NCBI GenBank assembly: GCA_021797265.1
Contig: JAJZZZ010000063.1
Span: 1-8,355 of the forward strand
Origin: Thermoplasmata archaeon
GTDB taxonomy: Archaea > Thermoplasmatota > Thermoplasmata > Thermoplasmatales > Thermoplasmataceae
DNA length: 8,355 nt
Reading direction: 5' to 3'
The notes beneath the pieces were generated by a model. It was given only the letters and a program-made list of their open reading frames with translations. It was not told where the DNA came from and ran no database searches. Positions 1 to 8,355 of this stretch are shown piece by piece (the stretch's first letter is position 1; each line of letters starts with the position of its first letter). The translations under genes were made by a program, and so were the position numbers.

Positions 1-1
1 A

Positions 2-346
2 GGAAACTATTCCATGTCGACTGACGGCGCCCTTGGAATCACAGTATTCATGAGCCTGGATATGGACAGGGACCTCGAAATAGAAGGTTTCTCCAGAGAG
101 ATATTGAGAAGGATACAGGTAATGAGGAAAGAGATAGACCTGCAGTACGACGATAACATAAAGGTAGAGGTAAACTGCGACAACTCCACCTGGGAAAAGA
201 TAGAGCCAAAACTTTCTTGGATATCGGCTGAATCGCTTGCACTCTCCATAAAAAGGGGAGACGCAGAGGGTGGAAAGGAGTGGGATGTTGATGGTGAATC
301 CCTTAAAATCAGAATAGAACCTGAAGAGAGGGTCAGTGTTGAATAA
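2..346 (+). CDS. ileS: Isoleucyl-tRNA synthetase, C-terminal fragment (5' end outside window)
   Basis: This is the last 114 codons of a gene whose reading frame is open to the left edge, so the Met at base 14 is internal and not a start. It contains the region after the anticodon-binding domain of archaeal/eukaryotic-type IleRS. The recognisable stretch is DLEIEGFSREILRRIQVMRK followed by an acidic 'EIDLQYDDNIKVEV' segment, which matches the small C-terminal domain that follows the helical anticodon domain in this class I synthetase. The enzyme charges tRNA-Ile in the cytoplasm. The catalytic HIGH and KMSKS motifs and the editing domain must lie upstream and cannot be checked here. The stop codon lies inside the start region of nadM (11-base overlap), so the two are probably co-transcribed. 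The identification rests on one domain but the match is characteristic. Confidence 0.85.
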   Translation, partial: GNYSMSTDGALGITVFMSLDMDRDLEIEGFSREILRRIQVMRKEIDLQYDDNIKVEVNCDNSTWEKIEPKLSWISAESLALSIKRGDAEGGKEWDVDGESLKIRIEPEERVSVE

Positions 347-863
347 CAACAGGGCTTTTATAGTTGGAAGATTTCAACCTTTCCATAAAGGTCATCTCGC
401 AATAATCAGAGAAATTTTGAAAGAGACGGAATCCATAATCATCGGGATCGGCAGTGCCCAATATTCCCACACCCTGAAAGACCCATTCACAGCAGGGGAA
501 AGGCACATAATGATCTCAAGCACCCTTGAATCTGAGGGAATCTATCAGTTCTACCTTGTGCCAATTGAGGATGTTAATTCCAATCCACTATGGGTTGCAC
601 ATGTAGAATCACTTACCCCAAGGTTCAATCAGGTCTTCACAAATAACCCGCTTGTTAAGAGACTGTTCTATGAGAAAGGATATTCAGTGAATTCCATGAA
701 CATGATTAATAGGGATTCCTGGTCAGGAACCAGGATAAGGGAAAAGATGCTTCATGGCCAGGACTGGAAGTCGGATGTCCCAGAGACTGTATCCCAGATA
801 ATAGATGAGATAGATGGTGTAAGCAGAATCAGGGACCTGGCATTCTCCGACGAGAATCCCTGA
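336..863 (+). CDS. nadM: Nicotinamide-nucleotide adenylyltransferase, archaeal NadM type
   Basis: This enzyme transfers AMP from ATP to nicotinamide mononucleotide to make NAD+, the last step of NAD synthesis and salvage. The 175-residue protein is the usual length for archaeal NMNAT. Visible motifs are the nucleotidyltransferase signature GRFQPFHKGH (residues 11-20) with the HxGH residues 17-20, a conserved KDPFTAGER block (48-56), and SGTRIR at 130-135, the second ATP phosphate-binding motif. The start is GTG at 336, with TTG at 339 the only close alternative. Both fall inside the end of ileS, and a purine-rich GAGAGGG lies a few bases upstream. The overlap with ileS suggests translational coupling. 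No frameshift or missing catalytic residue is seen. Its stop is only 2 bases from the stop of the convergent M20 peptidase gene. Confidence 0.93.
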   Translation: MLNNNRAFIVGRFQPFHKGHLAIIREILKETESIIIGIGSAQYSHTLKDPFTAGERHIMISSTLESEGIYQFYLVPIEDVNSNPLWVAHVESLTPRFNQVFTNNPLVKRLFYEKGYSVNSMNMINRDSWSGTRIREKMLHGQDWKSDVPETVSQIIDEIDGVSRIRDLAFSDENP

Positions 864-865
864 GT

Positions 866-2062
866 CTACCCGTATATTATTTTCTCTATGATCTTTGCGT
901 CTCCAATTATGTGTGGTATAAGGACATACTCATCGGCCTGATGGGCGACCTCAGGTTCTGTTGTGCACCATACAGCAGCCTCTATGCCTCTTCTTCGGAA
1001 GAAGGCTGCGCATGTTCCCCCACCTATTCCAATAACCTTTGCCTCCTTGCCTTTTACTTCTCGGATTGCATTCTTAAGTATCCTGACGATGTCTGAACTC
1101 TCATGTGTGGGCAGGGGGGCCTGTTCCCGCTGGAAGAATTCGTAACTGATTCTTGCCTTTGATGTTTTGTGGAACTCTTTTATCTTTTCATCAATGAAAT
1201 CTGTCACAATGTCTAGATCATACTTAGGAAGAATTCTGCAGTCGTAATACTGTATTTCCGTACCTGGAATAGTATTGACGTTGTCCACATTCTTCTCCCT
1301 TTTGGTTGGTTCGAAGGTTGAATACGGAGGGGTAAAAATTGCATTCTCTTCGGCAAATCTCTCGTGAAGGGCCTGATCAAGCATCAGGAAAAACTTCATT
1401 GACTCCCTGTTTGCATTTATGGCCATGAATGGCTGGCTGGCATGATACTGCTTGCCTGATACTTTGAACTTTATCCATAAAATGCTCTTCTCTGCGACCT
1501 CGATATCTGTACCATCACTGGTGCCAGCATCGGGAACAAGAACCAGATCATTCTTGGTGAAGAGCCCTTTGTCAAGAAGGAAATCTATCCCATATTTGCT
1601 CCCGACTTCTTCATCGGCAACGAAAACTATGCCGAGATTGTATTTCAGGTCAGTTTTTCTCAGCTTTTTGAGAAGAAGCAGTGAAAGAAATACAGCCTGT
1701 CCATTATCGGATGTGCCCCGTCCGTATATGCGATCCTCTTTAACGGTGGGCTGGAATGGATCAAATGTCCAGAGAGCCCGGTTTCCGACCGGAACTGTAT
1801 CAATATGGGCAACGATCCAGAATGTCCTGTCCTGGTTTCCCTCTTTTACCACAATGCTGGGCCTTACTACATTGTGCGAATCCCGTACTTCGTATCTGTT
1901 TACATTCCTGATGCCCATATCCCTGAGAATTTCCATCAGGACCTCAGCCCTCTTGCCTTCACCTTCACCCCCTGATTCCGGAGATATTGCCTGAACTGGA
2001 ATTATCCTCTTTGCTAGCTCAATGATGAATTCACTGTCATCTGTAGATTCTAACAGATTCAT
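866..2062 (-). CDS. M20 family metallohydrolase (ArgE/DapE/carboxypeptidase-like)
   Basis: This is a di-zinc amidohydrolase of the M20 family, which removes acyl groups or C-terminal residues from small peptides and N-acyl amino acids. With the start chosen here it has 398 residues, normal for the family. The metal-site residues are all present: His86 and Asp88 in AHIDTVP, bridging Asp119 in GRGTSDNGQ, catalytic Glu151 and ligand Glu152 in ADEEVGS, Asp178 in LVPDAGTSD, and His374 near the C-terminus in EVAHQADEY. The dimerisation (lid) domain lies roughly at residues 190-300 and includes the SGKQYHASQP segment. Longer starts exist at ATG 2071 and ATG 2113, but a TATA-like TTATAAACC lies at 2082-2090 and fits a leaderless start at 2062. 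Substrate cannot be told from sequence: succinyl-diaminopimelate, acetylornithine and dipeptides are all possible. It stands alone on the minus strand, between convergent nadM and divergent proS. Confidence 0.88.
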   Translation of the reverse strand: MNLLESTDDSEFIIELAKRIIPVQAISPESGGEGEGKRAEVLMEILRDMGIRNVNRYEVRDSHNVVRPSIVVKEGNQDRTFWIVAHIDTVPVGNRALWTFDPFQPTVKEDRIYGRGTSDNGQAVFLSLLLLKKLRKTDLKYNLGIVFVADEEVGSKYGIDFLLDKGLFTKNDLVLVPDAGTSDGTDIEVAEKSILWIKFKVSGKQYHASQPFMAINANRESMKFFLMLDQALHERFAEENAIFTPPYSTFEPTKREKNVDNVNTIPGTEIQYYDCRILPKYDLDIVTDFIDEKIKEFHKTSKARISYEFFQREQAPLPTHESSDIVRILKNAIREVKGKEAKVIGIGGGTCAAFFRRRGIEAAVWCTTEPEVAHQADEYVLIPHIIGDAKIIEKIIYG

Positions 2063-2081
2063 AGGGTACATAATGAGGATT

Positions 2082-2090
2082 GGTTTATAA
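2082..2090 (-). promoter_or_regulatory. TATA-like box for the M20 hydrolase gene
   Basis: The minus strand reads TTATAAACC, centred 24 bases before the ATG at 2062. That is the spacing of an archaeal TATA box giving a leaderless or nearly leaderless transcript. A second AT-rich box, AATTTAAATC at 2101-2110, could serve the ATG at 2071 instead. Its presence also argues against the in-frame ATG at 2113, which would lie upstream of both boxes. This is based on spacing and consensus only. Confidence 0.45.
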
Positions 2091-2189
2091 TTGCTTCGTG
2101 ATTTAAATTTCATAATAAGGGCTTACCCGATATTTCATAACTGTATCCAGAGATTTTTTTAACATACCCGGCTGGGTTTTTCTGTTACC

Positions 2190-2198
2190 TTTTTAAAT
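2190..2198 (+). promoter_or_regulatory. Candidate TATA box for proS
   Basis: TTTTTAAAT at 2190-2198 is the best TATA-like element before proS. It would place transcription start near 2220, leaving a leader of about 40 bases that contains GGAG at 2246-2249. A second AT-rich stretch, TTAATTAAAAA at 2232-2242, is centred about 25 bases before the ATG at 2262 and could instead drive a leaderless transcript. The sequence does not decide between them. Confidence 0.4.
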
Positions 2199-2261
2199 TG
2201 GCTAAAATTGTTAATCGGGCTATGTGAAAGATTAATTAAAAAAACGGAGTTATGGCAGTTA

Positions 2262-3659
2262 ATGGAGAACAAGAAGATTGACTTCAGCTCCTGGTACAAT
2301 GAAATCATAGATCTCAGCGGGCTAAGCGATAAGCGGTACCCCATAAAGGGAATGAATGTATGGCTCCCCTACGGCCTTAAGGTTATGAAAGGCATAGACC
2401 GGATAATAAGGGATAATGTGGACAGCTCCAATTTTCAGGAGGTGCAGTTCCCGGTACTTATTACGAGAGACCAGCTGAGCATCGAATTTGAACATGTGAA
2501 GGGCTTTGAAAATGAGGTATTCTGGGTAACCCGTGGCGGCAGAGAACCTTTGGACGTGGAAATGGCCCTCAGGCCAACCAGTGAGGCGGCCATGTACGGC
2601 ATGTTTCAGCTCTGGATAAGGGCCCATACGGATCTTCCTCTGAAGATATATCAGATAGTCAGCGTATACAGATACGAGACAAAACATACAAGGACGTTCA
2701 TTAGAATAAGGGAAATTCATTTCTTCGAAGCACACACTGCCCATACAGATTATGAATCTGCAGAGTTACAGATGGTAGAATACAGGCAGATATGGGATCG
2801 AATTAGTGATGAACTCTGCCTTCCATTCGTAGTTGACCAGAGGCCAGACTGGGACAAGTTCCCGGGAGCAAAGTACACGCTTGCATTCGACACGGCAATG
2901 CCCGGCGGAAGAAGCCTGCAGATAGGGACTATACATCAGTATGGGGAAAACTTTTCCAGAAATTATGGCATTGAATACCTTAAAGAGGATGGGACACATT
3001 CCTATGTTTCACAGACAACATTCGGACTGAGCGAGCGTCTTCTGGCAGCGGTCATCGGCATTCATGGAGATGATACTGGACTGATATTTCCGCCATCCAT
3101 TGCCCCTGTTCAGATCGTCATAATTCCAATTCCTTCAGAAAAGGCAGACACCGGTTCATACTGCATGAAGGTCAGCAATATACTCTCCGCTGAAGGATTC
3201 AGAGTCCACATAGACAACAGAGACAACTACACACCAGGTTTCAAATTCAATGAATGGGAAATGAAAGGGGTGCCCCTGAGAATAGAGATTGGCGCCAGAG
3301 AGGTAATGGATAATAAAATCACAATGAGACTAAGAACTGGAGGGGACAGAATAAAATGCAATATTACCGATCTCCCGTCGGAGGTTTCCAGGGCGCTTGC
3401 ATTATTGAAAGATGAACTGAGGCGTAAGGCGTACGAGCATTTTGAACGAAGCATAGAGGATGGGGGTTCCCTGGAAAAAATAAAGAGAGGGGAGAATATG
3501 TTCAGATTCTTCTGGTGCGGTTCAAAGGAATGTTCAGACAGGATTGAAGGTGAAACTGGAAAAACAGTTCTTGGTATGCAGAAGGAGAATGAGAACAAAG
3601 GAAAATGCCTGATTTGTGGAAAAGAGGGGAGATTGGCCACGGCTTCAACACCTTACTGA
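2262..3659 (+). CDS. proS: Prolyl-tRNA synthetase, archaeal/eukaryotic type
   Basis: This class II synthetase charges tRNA-Pro. The protein of 465 residues follows the short archaeal-type plan. The catalytic core includes LRPTSEAAMY (about residues 103-112) and class II motif 2 with YRYETKHTRTFIRIREIHFF (136-155), and the motif 3 region is TTFGLSERLLAAVIGIHGDD (252-271). An anticodon-binding domain starts near residue 282 (APVQIVIIPI). A C-terminal zinc-binding-like domain follows, with four cysteines at 419, 424, 449 and 452. The chain ends in Tyr, a hallmark of this ProRS form. The bacterial-type editing insertion is absent. The reading frame extends upstream to a TTG at 2208, but MENKKIDFSSWYNEII is a natural archaeal ProRS N-terminus, so the ATG at 2262 was chosen. 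It is the first gene of a plus-strand run with the HAD phosphatase 10 bases downstream. Confidence 0.96.
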   Translation: MENKKIDFSSWYNEIIDLSGLSDKRYPIKGMNVWLPYGLKVMKGIDRIIRDNVDSSNFQEVQFPVLITRDQLSIEFEHVKGFENEVFWVTRGGREPLDVEMALRPTSEAAMYGMFQLWIRAHTDLPLKIYQIVSVYRYETKHTRTFIRIREIHFFEAHTAHTDYESAELQMVEYRQIWDRISDELCLPFVVDQRPDWDKFPGAKYTLAFDTAMPGGRSLQIGTIHQYGENFSRNYGIEYLKEDGTHSYVSQTTFGLSERLLAAVIGIHGDDTGLIFPPSIAPVQIVIIPIPSEKADTGSYCMKVSNILSAEGFRVHIDNRDNYTPGFKFNEWEMKGVPLRIEIGAREVMDNKITMRLRTGGDRIKCNITDLPSEVSRALALLKDELRRKAYEHFERSIEDGGSLEKIKRGENMFRFFWCGSKECSDRIEGETGKTVLGMQKENENKGKCLICGKEGRLATASTPY

Positions 3660-3669
3660 GGAAATAGAA

Positions 3670-4326
3670 ATGCGTGTTATGCTCGTTGCATTTGATATGG
3701 ACGGAGTTCTCACATTGGAGAGATCCAGCTGGGAATTTGTCCATAGATATCTGGGCGTTGACAATTCAGATAATCTAGAATTATACAGGAAATCTGAGAT
3801 ATCATACAGGGAATTCCTTGCAAGAGATGTGAGAAGATGGCTCGAGGTCAGGCCTGATATGACCACTAAGGATCTGGACAAAATACTTTCAGGAATAACT
3901 GCAGTTAAAAACCTGAAATCATCTGTGCGGGCTTTGAAAGATGCCGGGATCACATGCGCCATAATATCGGGAGGCTTGAAGCCACTGGCGAGAAGGATAG
4001 GTACTGAATCAGGGATTGGAATAGTAATGGCCAATGACATCGTCCCATCTGAAGATGGGAGACTGACGGAAAACGGCATTATAATGGTGGACCCAAAGTC
4101 AAAGGATGTTGTCCTGCGTGATATACAGAAAAATACCGGAATAAAGCCAGATTCAACTGTCAGTGTAGGTGATTCTCCGGAAGACGCAAGGATGTTTTCC
4201 CTTTCAGCCAGCTCAATATTTATAGCTGATGGAAGAAAAAGCAGTGGTATATTGGCCACATCAGTACTTCCCCCGGGAGATCTGAAGCCCGTGGCAGATA
4301 CAATTCTTGAATGGAATTCCCAATGA
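3670..4326 (+). CDS. HAD superfamily IB phosphatase, phosphoserine phosphatase-like
   Basis: This is a Mg2+-dependent haloacid-dehalogenase-fold phosphatase of 218 residues, resembling the archaeal PSPase-like subfamily IB. Motif I is FDMDGVLT, with nucleophile Asp9 and acid/base Asp11. Motif II is IISGG with Ser100. A motif III Lys is present in the DPKSKDVVL segment (Lys143 or Lys145). Motif IV is VGDSPEDARM with Asp168 and Asp172. The cap is the helical segment after motif I, about residues 15-80. It may release serine from phosphoserine, but the substrate is not certain: motif I has Gly-Val where classical SerB has Ser-Thr, and many relatives are uncharacterised. The frame extends back into proS to 3616, but the ATG at 3670 is preferred. 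It avoids the overlap, follows a GAGGAA purine stretch just after the proS stop, and gives the standard N-terminus. It is probably co-transcribed with proS. Confidence 0.82.
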   Translation: MRVMLVAFDMDGVLTLERSSWEFVHRYLGVDNSDNLELYRKSEISYREFLARDVRRWLEVRPDMTTKDLDKILSGITAVKNLKSSVRALKDAGITCAIISGGLKPLARRIGTESGIGIVMANDIVPSEDGRLTENGIIMVDPKSKDVVLRDIQKNTGIKPDSTVSVGDSPEDARMFSLSASSIFIADGRKSSGILATSVLPPGDLKPVADTILEWNSQ

Positions 4327-4341
4327 CATTCTACTCTAAGG

Positions 4342-4353
4342 AAAAATAAATAT
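4342..4353 (+). promoter_or_regulatory. TATA-like box for radB-fen1
   Basis: AAAAATAAATAT lies in the 46-base gap between the HAD phosphatase and radB, centred about 25 bases before the radB ATG at 4373. That spacing fits an archaeal promoter with a leaderless radB transcript, so radB-fen1 is likely its own transcription unit, perhaps with read-through from proS. This rests on spacing and AT content only. Confidence 0.5.
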
Positions 4354-4372
4354 CCTCATCCAATAAGGGATA

Positions 4373-5074
4373 ATGGAAAAACTTGATCCCACTAGCCTTC
4401 AGCCTAAATTGAGCTCTGGCGTGGCATGCATAGATACGGTTATGGGTGGAGGGATTGAGTCAGGAGTTATTACAGAAATATTCGGGGAGGGCGGTGCAGG
4501 AAAGAGCAATCTTGCTATGCTGTTCACCATCTCCGCCATCAGTTCTGGTAAGAAGGTAATATTCCTGGATTCAGAGGGGTTTTCCACGGAACGATTTCTT
4601 CAGCTAAATTCTGGCAGAACGGATAATATGGATAACCTTCTTCTATACAGGGTATCATCTCTCGACGATCAGGAAGTTTCAATCATTAAGGCCTCCAAGC
4701 TTACGGAAAAGCCTGGGGGTGTGGGTGTAGTTGTCATTGACTCTTTCACAGAATTCTTCAGGCTTGAGAATTTTCAAGACTACCAGAGCAGGAGTTCAGC
4801 TTTTCAGCGCCAGCTGAACATTCTCACCGGCATAGCCGTCAGAAACTCAATTCCATTGCTGCTTACGAACCAGATATATCAGGATCCAGACTCGGGGAAC
4901 CTTCATCCTTTTGGCGGGTTCCTCATGGATCATCTTATGAAGGCAATATTCCGGGTTGAGAAAACTGCGGGGGGAGGCAGGAAGATAAGTGTTGTAAAGC
5001 ATCGCTCTATTGCGGAAGGGAAGAGTGCCGTATTCAGATTGATGGAATATGGAATTTCCTGTGAGGTGCCCTGA
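4373..5074 (+). CDS. radB: DNA repair and recombination protein RadB
   Basis: RadB is a euryarchaeal RecA-superfamily paralogue. It consists of the ATPase core alone and assists the recombinase RadA. The protein has 233 residues, typical of RadB, and starts directly with the core, without the N-terminal helix-hairpin-helix domain of RadA. The leading block, SSGVACIDTVMGGGIESG (14-31), is followed by Walker A GEGGAGKS (38-45) with Lys44 and Ser45. Walker B is VGVVVIDSF with Asp123. A loop region LLLTNQIYQDP (162-172) follows, and then the basic segment GGRKISVVKHRS (201-212). It acts on DNA in homologous recombination and repair; in family studies RadB binds DNA and RadA but is a weak ATPase. 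Its TGA shares an A with the ATG of fen1, so the two are probably translated in a coupled way. Confidence 0.93.
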   Translation: MEKLDPTSLQPKLSSGVACIDTVMGGGIESGVITEIFGEGGAGKSNLAMLFTISAISSGKKVIFLDSEGFSTERFLQLNSGRTDNMDNLLLYRVSSLDDQEVSIIKASKLTEKPGGVGVVVIDSFTEFFRLENFQDYQSRSSAFQRQLNILTGIAVRNSIPLLLTNQIYQDPDSGNLHPFGGFLMDHLMKAIFRVEKTAGGGRKISVVKHRSIAEGKSAVFRLMEYGISCEVP

Positions 5075-6093
5075 TGGGGGTAGATATTTCTGACATCCTC
5101 ATTAAACATGAGACCAGAATAGAGGATCATTCCGGAATGACCATGGCCGTAGACTCATACAACATAATATACCAGTTCCTTAGCAGCATCAGGCAGCCAG
5201 ATGGAACGCCCCTTATGGATAATGCCGGAAACGTTACATCTCATCTGTCCGGCCTGTTCTACAGATCTGTTAGCCTCATCTCTGCTGGCCTCAGGCTGGT
5301 TTACGTACTTGATGGCAAGCCCTCAAGCCTTAAGGGGAACACACTTGATGAAAGGAGGATGATGAGGGAGAAAAATATTATGGAGCTGAAGAAGGCAGAG
5401 GAGGCTGGAGATGAGGAACGCATACGTTCCCTGTCTGGTAGAATTAATTTCCTTACACGGCCAATGATAGATGAGTGCAGGGAACTACTGGAGGCTATGG
5501 GCATTCCAGTGGTTCAGGCAAAATCAGAAGGAGAGGCACAGGCATCCTACATGAATGCGCAGGGAGCAGTCGACGGAGTTATATCGCAGGATTATGACTG
5601 CTTGCTTTTCGGGGCCAAAAGAGTTTTCCGAAATATGACATTCTCAGGAAGAAGAAAGGTTCCGGGGAGAAACTTCTATGTCAACGTCAGGCCAGAATAC
5701 ATTGATCTGGAGGAAAACCTTTCAAACCTTTCAATTGACAGGCGCCAGCTCATCTGGATTGGAATGCTCACTGGCACTGACTTCAACAGGGGTGTACAGA
5801 GAGTTGGAGCAAAAACCGGACTAAATCTGATACGCAAGGGCAACACTCTACGGCAGATTCTTGACATGAAGGGTGCCAGTATAGAAAGCCTTGAAGATGT
5901 GGAAGACATTTTCATGAACCCACCGCATGAGGAGTGGGGCGAACTCCAGCATATGCCACCGAACAGGGAATCAATCATGAAGATACTGTGTGAAAGGCAT
6001 AATTTCTCACAGGAACGTGTTTCTCCATACGTTGATACCCTGTCCAAACTATATTCCAAAGGTGCACAGAAAAGCCTGGACAGGTTTTTCTGA
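5074..6093 (+). CDS. fen: Flap endonuclease 1 (FEN1/XPG family)
   Basis: This enzyme is a structure-specific 5' nuclease that removes flaps during Okazaki fragment maturation and base excision repair. The 339 residues are the usual archaeal length. Metal-binding carboxylates are all visible: Asp27 (MAVDSYN), Asp80 (YVLDGKP), Glu152 and Glu154 (SEGEAQA), Asp173 and Asp175 (SQDYDCL), and Asp236 (GTDF). Lys87 and Arg94 align with the substrate-positioning Lys93 and Arg100 of human FEN1. A charged helical arch follows at about 90-130. The C-terminus, QKSLDRFF (332-339), is a perfect PIP box, so the enzyme should bind the sliding clamp PCNA. The helix-2-turn-helix around 240-246 reads GVQRVGA, where relatives usually have a GIGP-like core; Gly becomes Arg243 and Pro becomes Ala246. 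The start overlaps the radB stop by one base, which points to shared regulation of two repair proteins. Confidence 0.95.
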   Translation: MGVDISDILIKHETRIEDHSGMTMAVDSYNIIYQFLSSIRQPDGTPLMDNAGNVTSHLSGLFYRSVSLISAGLRLVYVLDGKPSSLKGNTLDERRMMREKNIMELKKAEEAGDEERIRSLSGRINFLTRPMIDECRELLEAMGIPVVQAKSEGEAQASYMNAQGAVDGVISQDYDCLLFGAKRVFRNMTFSGRRKVPGRNFYVNVRPEYIDLEENLSNLSIDRRQLIWIGMLTGTDFNRGVQRVGAKTGLNLIRKGNTLRQILDMKGASIESLEDVEDIFMNPPHEEWGELQHMPPNRESIMKILCERHNFSQERVSPYVDTLSKLYSKGAQKSLDRFF

Positions 6094-6101
6094 TATCACT
6101 A

Positions 6102-6111
6102 TTGCTAGCAA
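6102..6111. repeat. Perfect 10-base palindrome upstream of the AbrB-family gene
   Basis: TTGCTAGCAA is a perfect palindrome about 10 bases upstream of the TATA-like box of the small AbrB-family gene. A related imperfect copy, ATGTTAGCAT, lies at 6136-6145 on the other side of the box. The shared core is TGYTAGCA. The pair may be an operator for the gene just downstream; that role is inferred from position. Confidence 0.4.
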
Positions 6112-6120
6112 GTGTCAACC

Positions 6121-6129
6121 TTATATATT
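6121..6129 (+). promoter_or_regulatory. TATA box for the AbrB-family gene
   Basis: TTATATATT is a near-consensus archaeal TATA box centred 28 bases before the ATG at 6153, which implies a leaderless transcript. It sits almost exactly midway between two TGYTAGCA palindromes centred at 6106.5 and 6140.5. The gene is therefore probably transcribed separately from fen1. Confidence 0.6.
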
Positions 6130-6135
6130 GAAATT

Positions 6136-6145
6136 ATGTTAGCAT
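6136..6145. repeat. Imperfect second copy of the TGYTAGCA palindrome
   Basis: ATGTTAGCAT shares seven of eight core bases with the palindrome at 6102-6111, and its centre lies 34 bases from that copy. It lies just before the predicted transcription start of the AbrB-family gene, where a bound protein would block initiation. It is a candidate operator half of an autoregulatory pair. Confidence 0.35.
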
Positions 6146-6152
6146 ATTATTC

Positions 6153-6311
6153 ATGAGAACTCTCATTGACGTATCACATGTTTCAAAGAAGAGCAAATCC
6201 CTTAGAATTACACTTCCGAAGAAAGTCATAGACGAATTGAGAATCCAGCCATCCGAGATACTTGGATACTACCTTGAGGATGGCAAAATAGTGCTGGAAA
6301 AACTGAAATAG
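6153..6311 (+). CDS. Small AbrB/MazE/SpoVT-fold DNA-binding protein
   Basis: This 52-residue gene has a strong promoter signal. The protein has the pattern of the swapped-hairpin AbrB/MazE fold: an N-terminal strand with basic residues (VSKKSKSLRITLPKKVIDEL, residues 10-29), where SLRITLPKKV is the characteristic strand-turn-helix, and a C-terminal strand GYYLEDGKIVLEKL (38-51). Such domains dimerise and bind palindromic or AT-rich DNA through the basic N-terminal strands. Members are transition-state regulators or the antitoxin half of toxin-antitoxin pairs. No toxin gene is adjacent: fen1 is upstream and tyrS is convergent 23 bases downstream, so a stand-alone regulator is more likely here. 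Two TGYTAGCA palindromes around its own TATA box suggest autoregulation. Family assignment is fairly sure; the targets are unknown. Confidence 0.8.
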   Translation: MRTLIDVSHVSKKSKSLRITLPKKVIDELRIQPSEILGYYLEDGKIVLEKLK

Positions 6312-6334
6312 ATCCTATATCATTGGGGATATTC

Positions 6335-7339
6335 TCAGAGTGCATTTTCATCCGCTGCCAATGCTGCCCTGCCTTTTTCCATCAAACTATTTAATGCTGC
6401 TGCTACGGCCTTCTTAAGGTCAAGGGGATGAATCTCACCCCTTTCATACACTCCACTGAATTCAGCGAAATCTTTGAATCTGATTGCCCCTCCTTTTGAA
6501 GGAGGCCGGGTTATTTCTATTCCATCTTCGGAGTAGGGAAGAATTATGTATTTGAGTATGTCAACAACAGGATTTCCGGAGACCTCTTTTACAGGGCAGA
6601 AAGCGGAGGATATTTTTCGATTTACATCTGATTCACTGTCAGTCATGAAAATAGCTGAATCGGCATCACTCTTAGACATTTTCTTGAATGGATCCATCCT
6701 TCCTGTGCCTTTTAGGCTTTCCAGAAGATTCCCATGAACAGATACTACCTTCTTTACACCCATTCTTTCAGCAATGTCTCTCTGCAGCATGTGGGCATGC
6801 CTCTGATCCATGCCTCCGAGCGCTATGTCAAAGCCGCTGTAAATTATGTCCGTCACCTGCATAAGTGGGTATATAAATTTGCTGAAGTCTCCTTCCGCAT
6901 CCTCTTCTGTCCTGCCCATTATAGGAAGCGAACGCTTAAGCCTGGAAAGAGTGGAACTCTTTGCAACCTTTATGAGTGTTGTCCAGTATTCTCTGTCATT
7001 AACCACGTCTGTAGCCCATTTGAATTCAACATTTGACGGAAGGCCGTAAGCCTTCATGCAGCGCTCTATCATTTTTCCGCTTTCGCGTATCTTCTTAAGG
7101 TCTCCCCCCAGTTTGTCGTTTATCTGTGAATGCAGATCAGCCAGCAAAACTGTAACTCTGACACCTGCCTCCGCCAGTTCCTTGACCTTCATGGCCCAGA
7201 GTATACCTGTGGCAATGTGCGGAAGTCCGGATGGCTCAAAACCAATGTATGCGGTAGATGAATCTGGATCAAGTTTCTCTGCTTCTTCTACAGTTACAAC
7301 CTCAGCCATGTTTCTGGACAGAATATTGACAGGGAACAT
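6335..7339 (-). CDS. tyrS: Tyrosyl-tRNA synthetase, archaeal type
   Basis: This class I synthetase charges tRNA-Tyr. The 334-residue protein resembles the crenarchaeal-like group of archaeal TyrRS. Visible are Tyr31 in AYIGFEPSG, the HIGH-like motif read here as HIAT (41-44), the KELAEAGV and LLADLHSQINDKLGGD segments (53-80), the tyrosine pocket YPLMQVTDI with Tyr157, Gln161 and Asp164, and GGMDQRHAHML with Asp178 and Gln179. The KMSKS loop is a perfect K220-S224. The C-terminal region with ITRPPSKGG and HPLDLKKAVA is the short anticodon-side domain of archaeal enzymes. The start at 7339 was kept because the N-terminal 'ILSRNMAEVVTVEEA' aligns with the usual RNTxEIIxEEE region; ATG 7309 is the alternative. 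The small residue in HIGH is Ala43 where Gly is expected. The gene is 9 bases downstream of the nuclease-like gene but has its own TATA-like box. Confidence 0.94.
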   Translation of the reverse strand: MFPVNILSRNMAEVVTVEEAEKLDPDSSTAYIGFEPSGLPHIATGILWAMKVKELAEAGVRVTVLLADLHSQINDKLGGDLKKIRESGKMIERCMKAYGLPSNVEFKWATDVVNDREYWTTLIKVAKSSTLSRLKRSLPIMGRTEEDAEGDFSKFIYPLMQVTDIIYSGFDIALGGMDQRHAHMLQRDIAERMGVKKVVSVHGNLLESLKGTGRMDPFKKMSKSDADSAIFMTDSESDVNRKISSAFCPVKEVSGNPVVDILKYIILPYSEDGIEITRPPSKGGAIRFKDFAEFSGVYERGEIHPLDLKKAVAAALNSLMEKGRAALAADENAL

Positions 7340-7348
7340 TTCCCCGCT

Positions 7349-7864
7349 CTATCGTTTTGCTGTAATTAAATTTTGCAAACATGAATCCTTAAATGAGCAC
7401 CTGAAGCATTTGCCTGGATTATTGTGATTTCTTTTCCCGCTCATATCACTGCCCCTCATTTCATTGACGGTTTTAAGAAGTTTTTCCCTGAGCTCTCTGG
7501 AATTTTCTATCCTGAATTTCTTTCTTCTGTATTCCAGAATTCCATGATCGATTCTCGATTCCGGGAAATTTTCCTCAAGTATCAGGAAGTATGCTGCCAT
7601 CTGAAGCAGATGGCCACTTCTTGGCCTCTCAGCATCAGTGCTCTTGTATTCAAATGGTATGAGGTTTCGGCCTTTGCGCATTATCATATCAGGCTTGCCT
7701 GAAATTCTGTACCTTTGGCTAACAATGATTCTGCCTCCAGAGGACAGATCGCTGTAAATCCTTCTGGACCCAGGTTCAGGGCTTGACTTTCTCAAAAAGT
7801 AATAAATAAGGTACAGAATAATAATTGAAAGTAGAAGAAATACTGGCAAAAATTGCCCGTTCAA
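7349..7864 (-). CDS. Membrane-anchored Cas4/RecB-like PD-(D/E)XK nuclease, C-terminal half
   Basis: The 171-residue protein begins with a hydrophobic helix (about residues 5-24) followed by positive charges, RK at 25-26 and RR at 34-35, which predicts N-terminus out and the rest in the cytoplasm. After it come the core motifs of a Cas4/Dna2-type PD-(D/E)XK nuclease: SGKPDMI with Asp59, PFEYKS with Glu72 and Lys74, and QMAAY with Gln88 and Tyr92. A cysteine cluster CFRCSFKDSC (Cys153, 156, 162) lies near the C-terminus, as in the iron-sulphur site of Cas4. The motif I His and the first cluster Cys are missing here but present in the gene just upstream. The start is a TTG whose bases overlap the upstream TGA (TTGA). 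It may act with the upstream product as one nuclease on DNA ends. No CRISPR or other cas gene is nearby, so a housekeeping or defence role is open. Confidence 0.75.
   Translation of the reverse strand: MNGQFLPVFLLLSIIILYLIYYFLRKSSPEPGSRRIYSDLSSGGRIIVSQRYRISGKPDMIMRKGRNLIPFEYKSTDAERPRSGHLLQMAAYFLILEENFPESRIDHGILEYRRKKFRIENSRELREKLLKTVNEMRGSDMSGKRNHNNPGKCFRCSFKDSCLQNLITAKR
7362..7374 (-). promoter_or_regulatory. TATA-like box for tyrS, inside the end of the upstream gene
   Basis: The minus strand reads AAAATTTAATTAC, centred about 28 bases before the tyrS ATG at 7339. That suits an archaeal promoter with a leaderless transcript. It lies inside the last codons of the upstream membrane nuclease-like gene, so tyrS can be transcribed independently of the small operon before it. 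Confidence 0.45.
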
Positions 7865-8133
7865 ACCAATCCCGCTAACATCAGAACTGTTGTTATTATG
7901 AGGATAGCCATTAGAATGACCATACTTATGGAAATTGCCCGGGCATACCGGAACTGCCTTTCTTTTTTCTGATGACTTGTTATGCCCTTTCTTATTCTAA
8001 CAGAAGATTTGGAAGAATGTGGAACTCCTGCCCTTTCCATCTCCCAGGCCACATTGCAGAACTCATACTGTGATATCTCAGATGCAGGTATTATCCTGGT
8101 TGCATTATCAGAATGTTCAATCATGGATGTCAT
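7861..8133 (-). CDS. Membrane protein with the N-terminal Cas4-like motif, partner of the following gene
   Basis: The 90-residue protein opens with the signature of the Cas4 N-terminus: IIPASEISQYEFCNVAW (residues 14-30), with Cys26 in the place of the first iron-sulphur ligand. RIRKGITSH (46-54) follows, with His54 as the motif I His of the RecB-like nuclease fold. A basic stretch, HQKKERQFRYAR, precedes one hydrophobic helix (about 67-89) that ends the protein, predicting N-terminus in the cytoplasm. By itself it lacks the catalytic Asp, Glu and Lys, which occur in the next gene. The ATG at 8133 overlaps the TGA of the gene before it (ATGA), and its own TGA overlaps the TTG of the gene after it, so three genes form a tightly coupled chain. 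The same arrangement would result from a frameshift in a single gene with a central helical hairpin. Confidence 0.72.
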   Translation of the reverse strand: MTSMIEHSDNATRIIPASEISQYEFCNVAWEMERAGVPHSSKSSVRIRKGITSHQKKERQFRYARAISISMVILMAILIITTVLMLAGLV

Positions 8134-8354
8134 CTCTTCAACTCATTGTTTACCTTCACTTTTATTGGGCCGAAGGGATATTCCTGCTCTACATCAATCT
8201 CCCTGTCGCGGGCAAGAAACATACAGTAAACAAGCAATGATTGAGCGGTAACTCCTGGATGGGCTGGGATCCTGTCAATATTTAATGACTCTGCATTAAT
8301 GCTTTTTATGACTTCCAGAATATCCCTGGCCTCTTTTTCAGGCTCTTCCGATGA
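8130..8354 (-). CDS. Unrecognised protein, C-terminal 74 residues (5' end outside window)
   Basis: A minus-strand frame is open from the right edge to a TGA at 8130-8132 that overlaps the next gene's ATG (ATGA). The visible 74 residues are rich in Glu, Lys, Ile and Val. They include an amphipathic-looking acidic start (EEPEKEARDILEVIKSINAE), a more hydrophobic middle (HPGVTAQSLLVYCMFLARD), and a charged end with strand-like IKVKV. No motif, membrane segment or cysteine cluster identifies a family. Codon use resembles the neighbours, and the four-base overlap argues that it is real and co-translated with the split nuclease. It could supply a partner or substrate-binding function, but that is only guilt by association. 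Confidence 0.6.
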   Translation of the reverse strand, partial: SSEEPEKEARDILEVIKSINAESLNIDRIPAHPGVTAQSLLVYCMFLARDREIDVEQEYPFGPIKVKVNNELKR

Positions 8355-8355
8355 A

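Follow-up and report, generated by a model that had tools for sequence, protein, structure and literature searches.

A Cas4-family nuclease of Thermoplasmatales that is very probably assembled from two membrane-anchored chains

The Cas4 proteins of CRISPR adaptation and their kin (structures 7mi4/7mi5, 8d3l, 4ic1, and 4r5q) have a PD-(D/E)XK core with an ordered His-Asp-Glu-Lys set. We take the known Cas4 structures to be single chains without hydrophobic helices, and we presume that known Cas4 proteins have one cluster Cys before the core and three after it. Here we analyze two adjacent genes, A and B, from a stretch of 8,355 nucleotides of a Thermoplasmata archaeon in the family Thermoplasmataceae (GenBank assembly GCA_021797265.1, contig JAJZZZ010000063.1, positions 1 to 8,355; we call this whole stretch the window). 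The core, the fold, and the catalytic residues of Cas4 are common to A plus B, but here the sequence is divided between two chains; the break lies between motif I and motif II, and both chains have a hydrophobic helix there. Also, in contrast to the Cas4 of CRISPR adaptation, the pair in the window has no cas1 or cas2 neighbour. Judging from sequence comparisons and modelling, this is very probably a Cas4-family nuclease assembled from two membrane-anchored chains, and we are quite confident that A and B together make up a single membrane-tethered PD-(D/E)XK enzyme. The computed basis is residue conservation, pairing, coupled loss of residues, one-chain homologues, and the fold of a joined chain.

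Like A and B, the solo-Cas4 genes of archaea are Cas4-family genes outside of CRISPR loci, and most of them are vertically inherited (PMC5704561). In the available part of that paper's main text, "Thermoplasma", "hydrophobic", "SMC", and "split" do not appear, "membrane" appears just in the name of another protein, and nothing is said about helices or a two-gene form. More broadly, we found no title or abstract on a membrane-bound or split Cas4 in the open-access literature; subscription papers were largely outside this search, so it is not proof of absence. Another system that bears some likeness is Wadjet (JetABCD), in which, according to the available part of PMC10586767, a nuclease gene also lies beside SMC and kleisin genes. 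However, the nuclease of Wadjet is the Toprim protein JetD and there is a KITE subunit as well, whereas here a membrane Cas4-like pair lies beside SMC and a ScpA-like gene. For this comparison we sought only SMC, the ScpA-like gene, and the tyrosyl-tRNA synthetase (TyrRS) beside the pair.

In the window, A carries the motifs SEISQYEFC and RKGITSH upstream of a C-terminal hydrophobic helix. B has an N-terminal hydrophobic helix, followed by GKPD, EYK, QMAAY (with the further motif residues Gln88 and Tyr92), and CFRCSFKDSC. A preliminary description of this DNA had read the two genes as halves of one membrane-tethered nuclease. When we re-read the window, both open reading frames, their motifs, and their helices were present as claimed, and its numbering (Cys26 and His54 of A; Asp59, Glu72, Lys74, and Cys153/156/162 of B) was correct.

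The two genes stay together across an order. We used 117 genomes from the order of the relative G001 (UBA447), of which 67 matched a profile of B at E ≤ 1e-20. By open-frame length and score, 51 of these 67 have the split form and 19 have a one-chain form, with three (G102, G301, and G322) having both; one of the 19, G307, is apparently broken at contig ends. The loci that we read were the top 30 and 20 chosen one-chain places, out of 215 matching genomes. Before counting, we dropped duplicates (L009, L011, L012, and L067-L069), re-fetched larger stretches (L057-L066), and two loci with B at the end of a contig (L003 and L047). There were 51 readable pairs, including the window's, and A lies directly upstream of B in all 51. 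The only B loci without A were L003 and L047, and by our own reading the very start of the L003 contig has bases that could encode the tail of A. (Immediately ahead of this apparent tail, L003:1-8 looks like a remnant of what we take to be an Illumina adapter.) A profile of A gave 67 matches, spread over 66 of the 117 genomes; by our sorting, 51 of the matches are split A genes and 16 are in one-chain-type frames. Fifty of the split A genes belong to pairs that we read, and the other, in G003, is at the end of another contig. Among the 16 one-chain-type places, the one in G312 has no accompanying B match at E ≤ 1e-20, and in G307 the B part is on another contig. The preliminary description had proposed a search for conserved pairs and had held that halves found alone with different partners would speak against it. 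Conserved pairs are what we found, and neither half had a different partner among the loci that we searched and read.

Might the pair instead be a one-chain, two-helix gene that has been interrupted by a frameshift, whether from sequencing error, decay, or programmed frameshifting or readthrough? The join does fall in the hydrophobic part, where the one-chain homologue P0198 continues unbroken. Furthermore, the relative frame of A and B is 2 in 25 pairs, 1 in 22 pairs, and 0 in 4 pairs, and in these last four there is only a stop codon between A and B, so readthrough could fuse them. However, a frameshift does not fit well with 51 pairs that use all three relative frames and three stop codons, or with the start of B, for which 45 of the 51 pairs have an in-frame ATG, GTG, or TTG at -7 to +5 nt from the stop of A. 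Nor does it fit with the length of B, which is 171 or 173 amino acids in 12 of the 18 B homologues from our first protein search. We consider an interrupted gene to be highly improbable, and we reject a frameshift or assembly error in view of the 51 pairs in three frames. The other six pairs (L022, L024, L025, L026, L036, and L084) have only near-cognate codons for B near the stop of A, and in these B may start at such a codon, for example CTG, ATC, or ATT.

Other Thermoplasmata have a one-chain membrane Cas4-like family with the same residues and with helices at the same position as in the split pair. These proteins differ from A plus B in that they are about 331 amino acids long, mostly have four helices, and have other gene neighbours. 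With L051 as the query, 945 proteins match at E ≤ 0.001, and the best 120 of these 945 are 326-352 amino acids long; database names in this family include "CRISPR-associated protein Cas4". Hydropathy gives four helices for 13 of 19 one-chain loci, three for L043, L048, L050, and L053, five for L056, and eight for L045. An even number, which would keep both ends on one side of the membrane, is thus the common case among these 19 loci and not every case. (The one-chain protein of L045, at L045:1882-3528, is in a frame of 559 amino acids, in which roughly eight hydrophobic helices separate motif I from GxPD.) In a profile-profile comparison of the joined split chains with the one-chain family, both halves match (E = 2.7e-40). 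The preliminary description had also proposed looking for one-chain homologues with two central helices, and there are such proteins, with about two. One is P0198, a single chain of 266 amino acids that aligns with the joined L020 chain over its whole length, hydrophobic part included, at 41% identity. The others (P0208, P0215-P0217, and P0219-P0221) form a lysine-rich group with lengths of 275-292 amino acids. For P0198 and P0216, hydropathy gives a single long hydrophobic stretch, and the two helices are our own reading.

An AlphaFold2 model of a joined chain has one Cas4-like PD-(D/E)XK core that is built from both halves, so in this model of a relative's joined chain, the Cas4 fold spans A and B. 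This is the outcome that had been predicted for a joint model. Fold and sequence matches to Cas4 structures include 7mi4/7mi5, 8d3l, 4ic1 (SSO0001), and 4r5q (Pcal_0546). B of the window exceeds the gathering cut-off of Pfam's Cas_Cas4 (PF01930; 36.2 bits vs. 22.7) and the cut-off of PDDEXK_1 (37.4 bits vs. 22). The ordered His-Asp-Glu-Lys set of Cas4/RecB-like nucleases, with the His in A and the rest in B, is present in 46 of 51 pairs, the window's included, and four Cys, one N-terminal and three C-terminal, are present in all 51; that they bind a cluster is a prediction. The pair is Cas4-like by most sequence and fold tests, with one curated cut-off narrowly missed, and by its context it is not a Cas4 of CRISPR adaptation.

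One sign that the halves work together was not foreseen in the preliminary description. Cys26 of A and the three Cys and Asp59 of B are invariant across the 51 pairs. His54 of A is gone from five pairs (L028, L035, L085, L086, and L087), and Glu72 and Lys74 of B are gone from exactly those five pairs and no others. These five retain the four Cys, the Asp, and both helices. In a tree of the joined pairs, they fall on two distinct branches, and the well-supported parts of the tree require two changes. Fisher's exact test by sequence count gives 4e-7, but the proper unit is two events, each of which is a joint loss across both genes. The sequences thus support the placement of both halves in one predicted active site. 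We predict that the five pairs are natural, catalytically dead versions that are still kept beside SMC. An alternative is that A and B act independently and have only an operon in common: they are separate genes, and their contact is a prediction. But independent proteins would not explain the one-chain homologues, the coupled loss, or the lack of a solo copy among the loci that we read, and the soluble part of A has fewer than 75 residues. We find this alternative barely credible.

Several points count against reading A and B as one membrane-tethered nuclease. First, because five pairs keep the Cys and the helices without the catalytic residues, the conserved role cannot be catalysis alone. 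The pair might now be mainly a DNA-binding or iron-sulphur structural unit at the membrane, with catalysis dispensable, as these five pairs on two branches, which lack the His, Glu, and Lys yet keep the rest, would suggest. On the other hand, the catalytic set is kept in 46 of 51 pairs, and losses of the whole set are what we would expect if catalysis is otherwise under selection, so a mainly structural role seems improbable to us. Second, the fold model was made from a relative's artificially joined chain, with one in-frame stop read through, and not from two separate chains, and in the match to 8d3l, the stretch that falls in A is weak by itself (14.9 bits, i-Evalue 0.15). Third, B of the window narrowly misses the cut-off of the cas4 equivalog TIGR00372 in NCBIfam (62.9 vs. 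65 bits). The joined L020 chain is also below it (62.9 bits), while the joined L023 chain (85.0) and the one-chain L051 (77.5), L038 (89.9), and L045 (86.7) exceed it; B of the catalytically dead L035 has 22.3 bits on PF01930, just under 22.7. Fourth, A of the window alone exceeds no cut-off in Pfam, NCBIfam, or PADLOC, and neither of the other A proteins tested (L034 and L036) exceeds a family cut-off. A does have weak matches to TIGR00372 (13.6 bits, E = 0.043, profile positions 2-48) and to PADLOC's Cas4 (15.6 bits, E = 0.0037, profile positions 2-54), but unrelated weak matches score slightly above cas4 (YqgH in Pfam, E = 0.021; CsgC in NCBIfam, E = 0.028). What lifts the kinship of A with Cas4 above chance is that A and B recur side by side in 50 further loci and that the key motifs can be aligned. 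Fifth, the split form may be an old paralogue and not a simple split, because the two forms make separate groups and because three genomes hold both. (In a tree of B parts, 36 split and 25 one-chain rows are parted by one fully supported branch; the tree had no outgroup, and L036, L034, L035, and L048 are on long branches.)

The predicted topology is based on hydropathy and charge. The preliminary description had invoked the positive-inside rule, an argument that is weaker than it sounds. The soluble side is indeed richer in Lys plus Arg: the 15 residues before the helix of A have more than those after it in 51 of 51 pairs, and the reverse is true for B in 51 of 51. However, these counts are biased because almost nothing follows the helix of A (median of 0 residues) or precedes the helix of B (about 5). 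With net charge instead, the rule holds in 46 of 51 pairs for A and 48 of 51 for B, and over just 5 residues on each side, it holds in 34 of 51 and 45 of 51. What stands is that each helix has a charged soluble part on one side and almost nothing on the other. Given this, and given that a one-chain relative could form one core only with both of its ends on the same side, we predict that both soluble parts are cytoplasmic.

From all this we infer two-chain assembly, iron-sulphur binding, DNA cutting, the topology, and coupled translation. Each chain would span the membrane once, and the two helices would pack as a hairpin, so that the soluble parts could co-fold in the cytoplasm into one nuclease core. 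A would provide the first cluster Cys and the motif-I His, and B would provide the Asp, Glu, Lys, Gln, and Tyr as well as the three other Cys. The genes are so close together that translation of B is probably fed by that of A, and the two chains would be made together. The split form is related to the one-chain proteins, whose hydrophobic helices likewise lie between motif I and motif II.

SMC and a ScpA-like gene lie upstream and TyrRS lies downstream at 47 of the 50 further loci. In the window, the end of the ScpA-like gene and TyrRS are visible, while SMC would fall outside. This synteny is only modest evidence for a link with SMC, as TyrRS is kept too and so is FEN1 (38 of 50 further loci). 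The exceptions to the SMC context are L034 and L084, which share a common alternative neighbourhood with a PAC2-family gene beside the pair, and L036. (In G102, G301, and G322, the split pair lies outside the SMC context and there is a one-chain copy in the same genome.) The name ScpA-like is inferred from position, because the full gene has no Pfam or NCBIfam match in L001 and no Pfam match in L014. According to the available part of PMC7055376, smc and scpA are neighbours in 12 of 12 Thermoplasmatales, and the text has scpB far from scpA in each of the 12, while the table has the two adjacent in 1 of 12. A and B thus seem to occupy the place that scpB has in many bacteria.

This context also bears on whether the pair is an adaptation-module Cas4 that drifted from its CRISPR locus. 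Cas4 profiles do match B, and among the 33 genomes that we tested, out of 51 with the pair, 16 contain Cas1 matches, although a few of these matches are short fragments. However, a drifted Cas4 would not account for the conserved order of SMC, ScpA-like gene, A, B, and TyrRS, no cas gene (cas1 and cas2 included) is beside the pair among the window genes tested, and the other 17 of the 33 genomes have no Cas1 match, which is a soft absence as genome completeness was not stated. So the pair does not closely track CRISPR adaptation, and we think that a drifted Cas4 is very unlikely. The preliminary description had said that there is no CRISPR context, which is true of the window genes tested and not of every genome with the pair.

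As for the role of the pair, our first guess is that it trims DNA ends at the membrane, either for housekeeping or against invaders, outside of CRISPR and possibly linked to SMC-ScpA. A bolder proposal is that a nuclease with active and iron-sulphur sites each formed from two single-pass membrane proteins, kept across the order, works with the SMC-ScpA of the same gene cluster and cuts or trims the DNA handled by SMC at the membrane, unlike Wadjet or CRISPR Cas4; we consider this doubtful. Still, our results indicate that membrane embedding is possible for a nuclease of the Cas4 family, and that its gene can even be divided in two at the membrane segment without loss of the shared active site. 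The joint loss of catalytic residues in two lineages offers a natural control. The solo-Cas4 of a large archaeal class becomes a concrete object to test: a membrane nuclease, which in one order lies beside SMC. In practice, genes of Thermoplasmatales that are annotated as a half-length "Cas4" probably encode complete B chains, and none of the three partner A proteins that we tested passed a family cut-off.

Features of the A-B locus in the window (coordinates are positions in the window)
Feature	Coordinates	Strand	Basis
Gene A, N-terminal half of Cas4-like nuclease; 90 amino acids, ATG start, one hydrophobic C-terminal helix	7861..8133	-	Open reading frame; adjoins B in 51/51 readable pairs
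Gene B, C-terminal half; 171 amino acids, TTG start, one hydrophobic N-terminal helix	7349..7864	-	Open reading frame and family profile matches
TTGA overlap of B start codon and A stop codon	7861..7864	-	Sequence
A Cys26, first cluster Cys (predicted)	8056..8058	-	Kept in 51/51 pairs
A His54, motif I His	7972..7974	-	Kept in 46/51 pairs; aligned opposite a His of Cas4 8d3l (weak, 14.9 bits for the A part)
Hydrophobic helix of A, residues about 72-90	7864..7920	-	Hydropathy
Hydrophobic helix of B, residues about 6-24	7793..7849	-	Hydropathy
B Asp59 of GKPD	7688..7690	-	Kept in 51/51 pairs
B Glu72-Tyr-Lys74 (EYK)	7643..7651	-	Glu and Lys kept in 46/51 pairs; gone from the same 5 pairs as A His54
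B Cys153, Cys156, and Cys162, cluster Cys 2-4 (predicted)	7379..7408	-	Kept in 51/51 pairs
3' end of upstream ScpA-like (kleisin) gene	8130..8355	-	Place after SMC in relatives; 4-nt overlap with A; Rad21_Rec8 15.5 bits, under the 22.7 cut-off
Tyrosyl-tRNA synthetase, conserved downstream neighbour	6335..7339	-	NCBIfam and synteny

We scanned eight other genes of the window, of which seven are housekeeping genes by NCBIfam (TyrRS, FEN1, RadB, ProRS, NMN adenylyltransferase, M20 hydrolase, and HAD phosphatase). The eighth (6153-6311, + strand) encodes a MazE/AbrB-like protein of 52 amino acids between TyrRS and FEN1 and is kept in many relatives. The neighbours of the one-chain gene in 20 loci (L037-L056) have no clear functional theme; an NTP-transferase family is nearby in 8 genomes and a SIS/GATase family in 6. 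Finally, the one-chain membrane Cas4-like genes at L062:7791-10733 and L066:10019-12673 are near a gene for a protein with a lamin-tail domain and a PLD-like domain; genes of this family lie close to the one-chain gene in G019, G065, and G168, three genomes in all, and in L062 a gene with a metallo-beta-lactamase fold is nearby as well.
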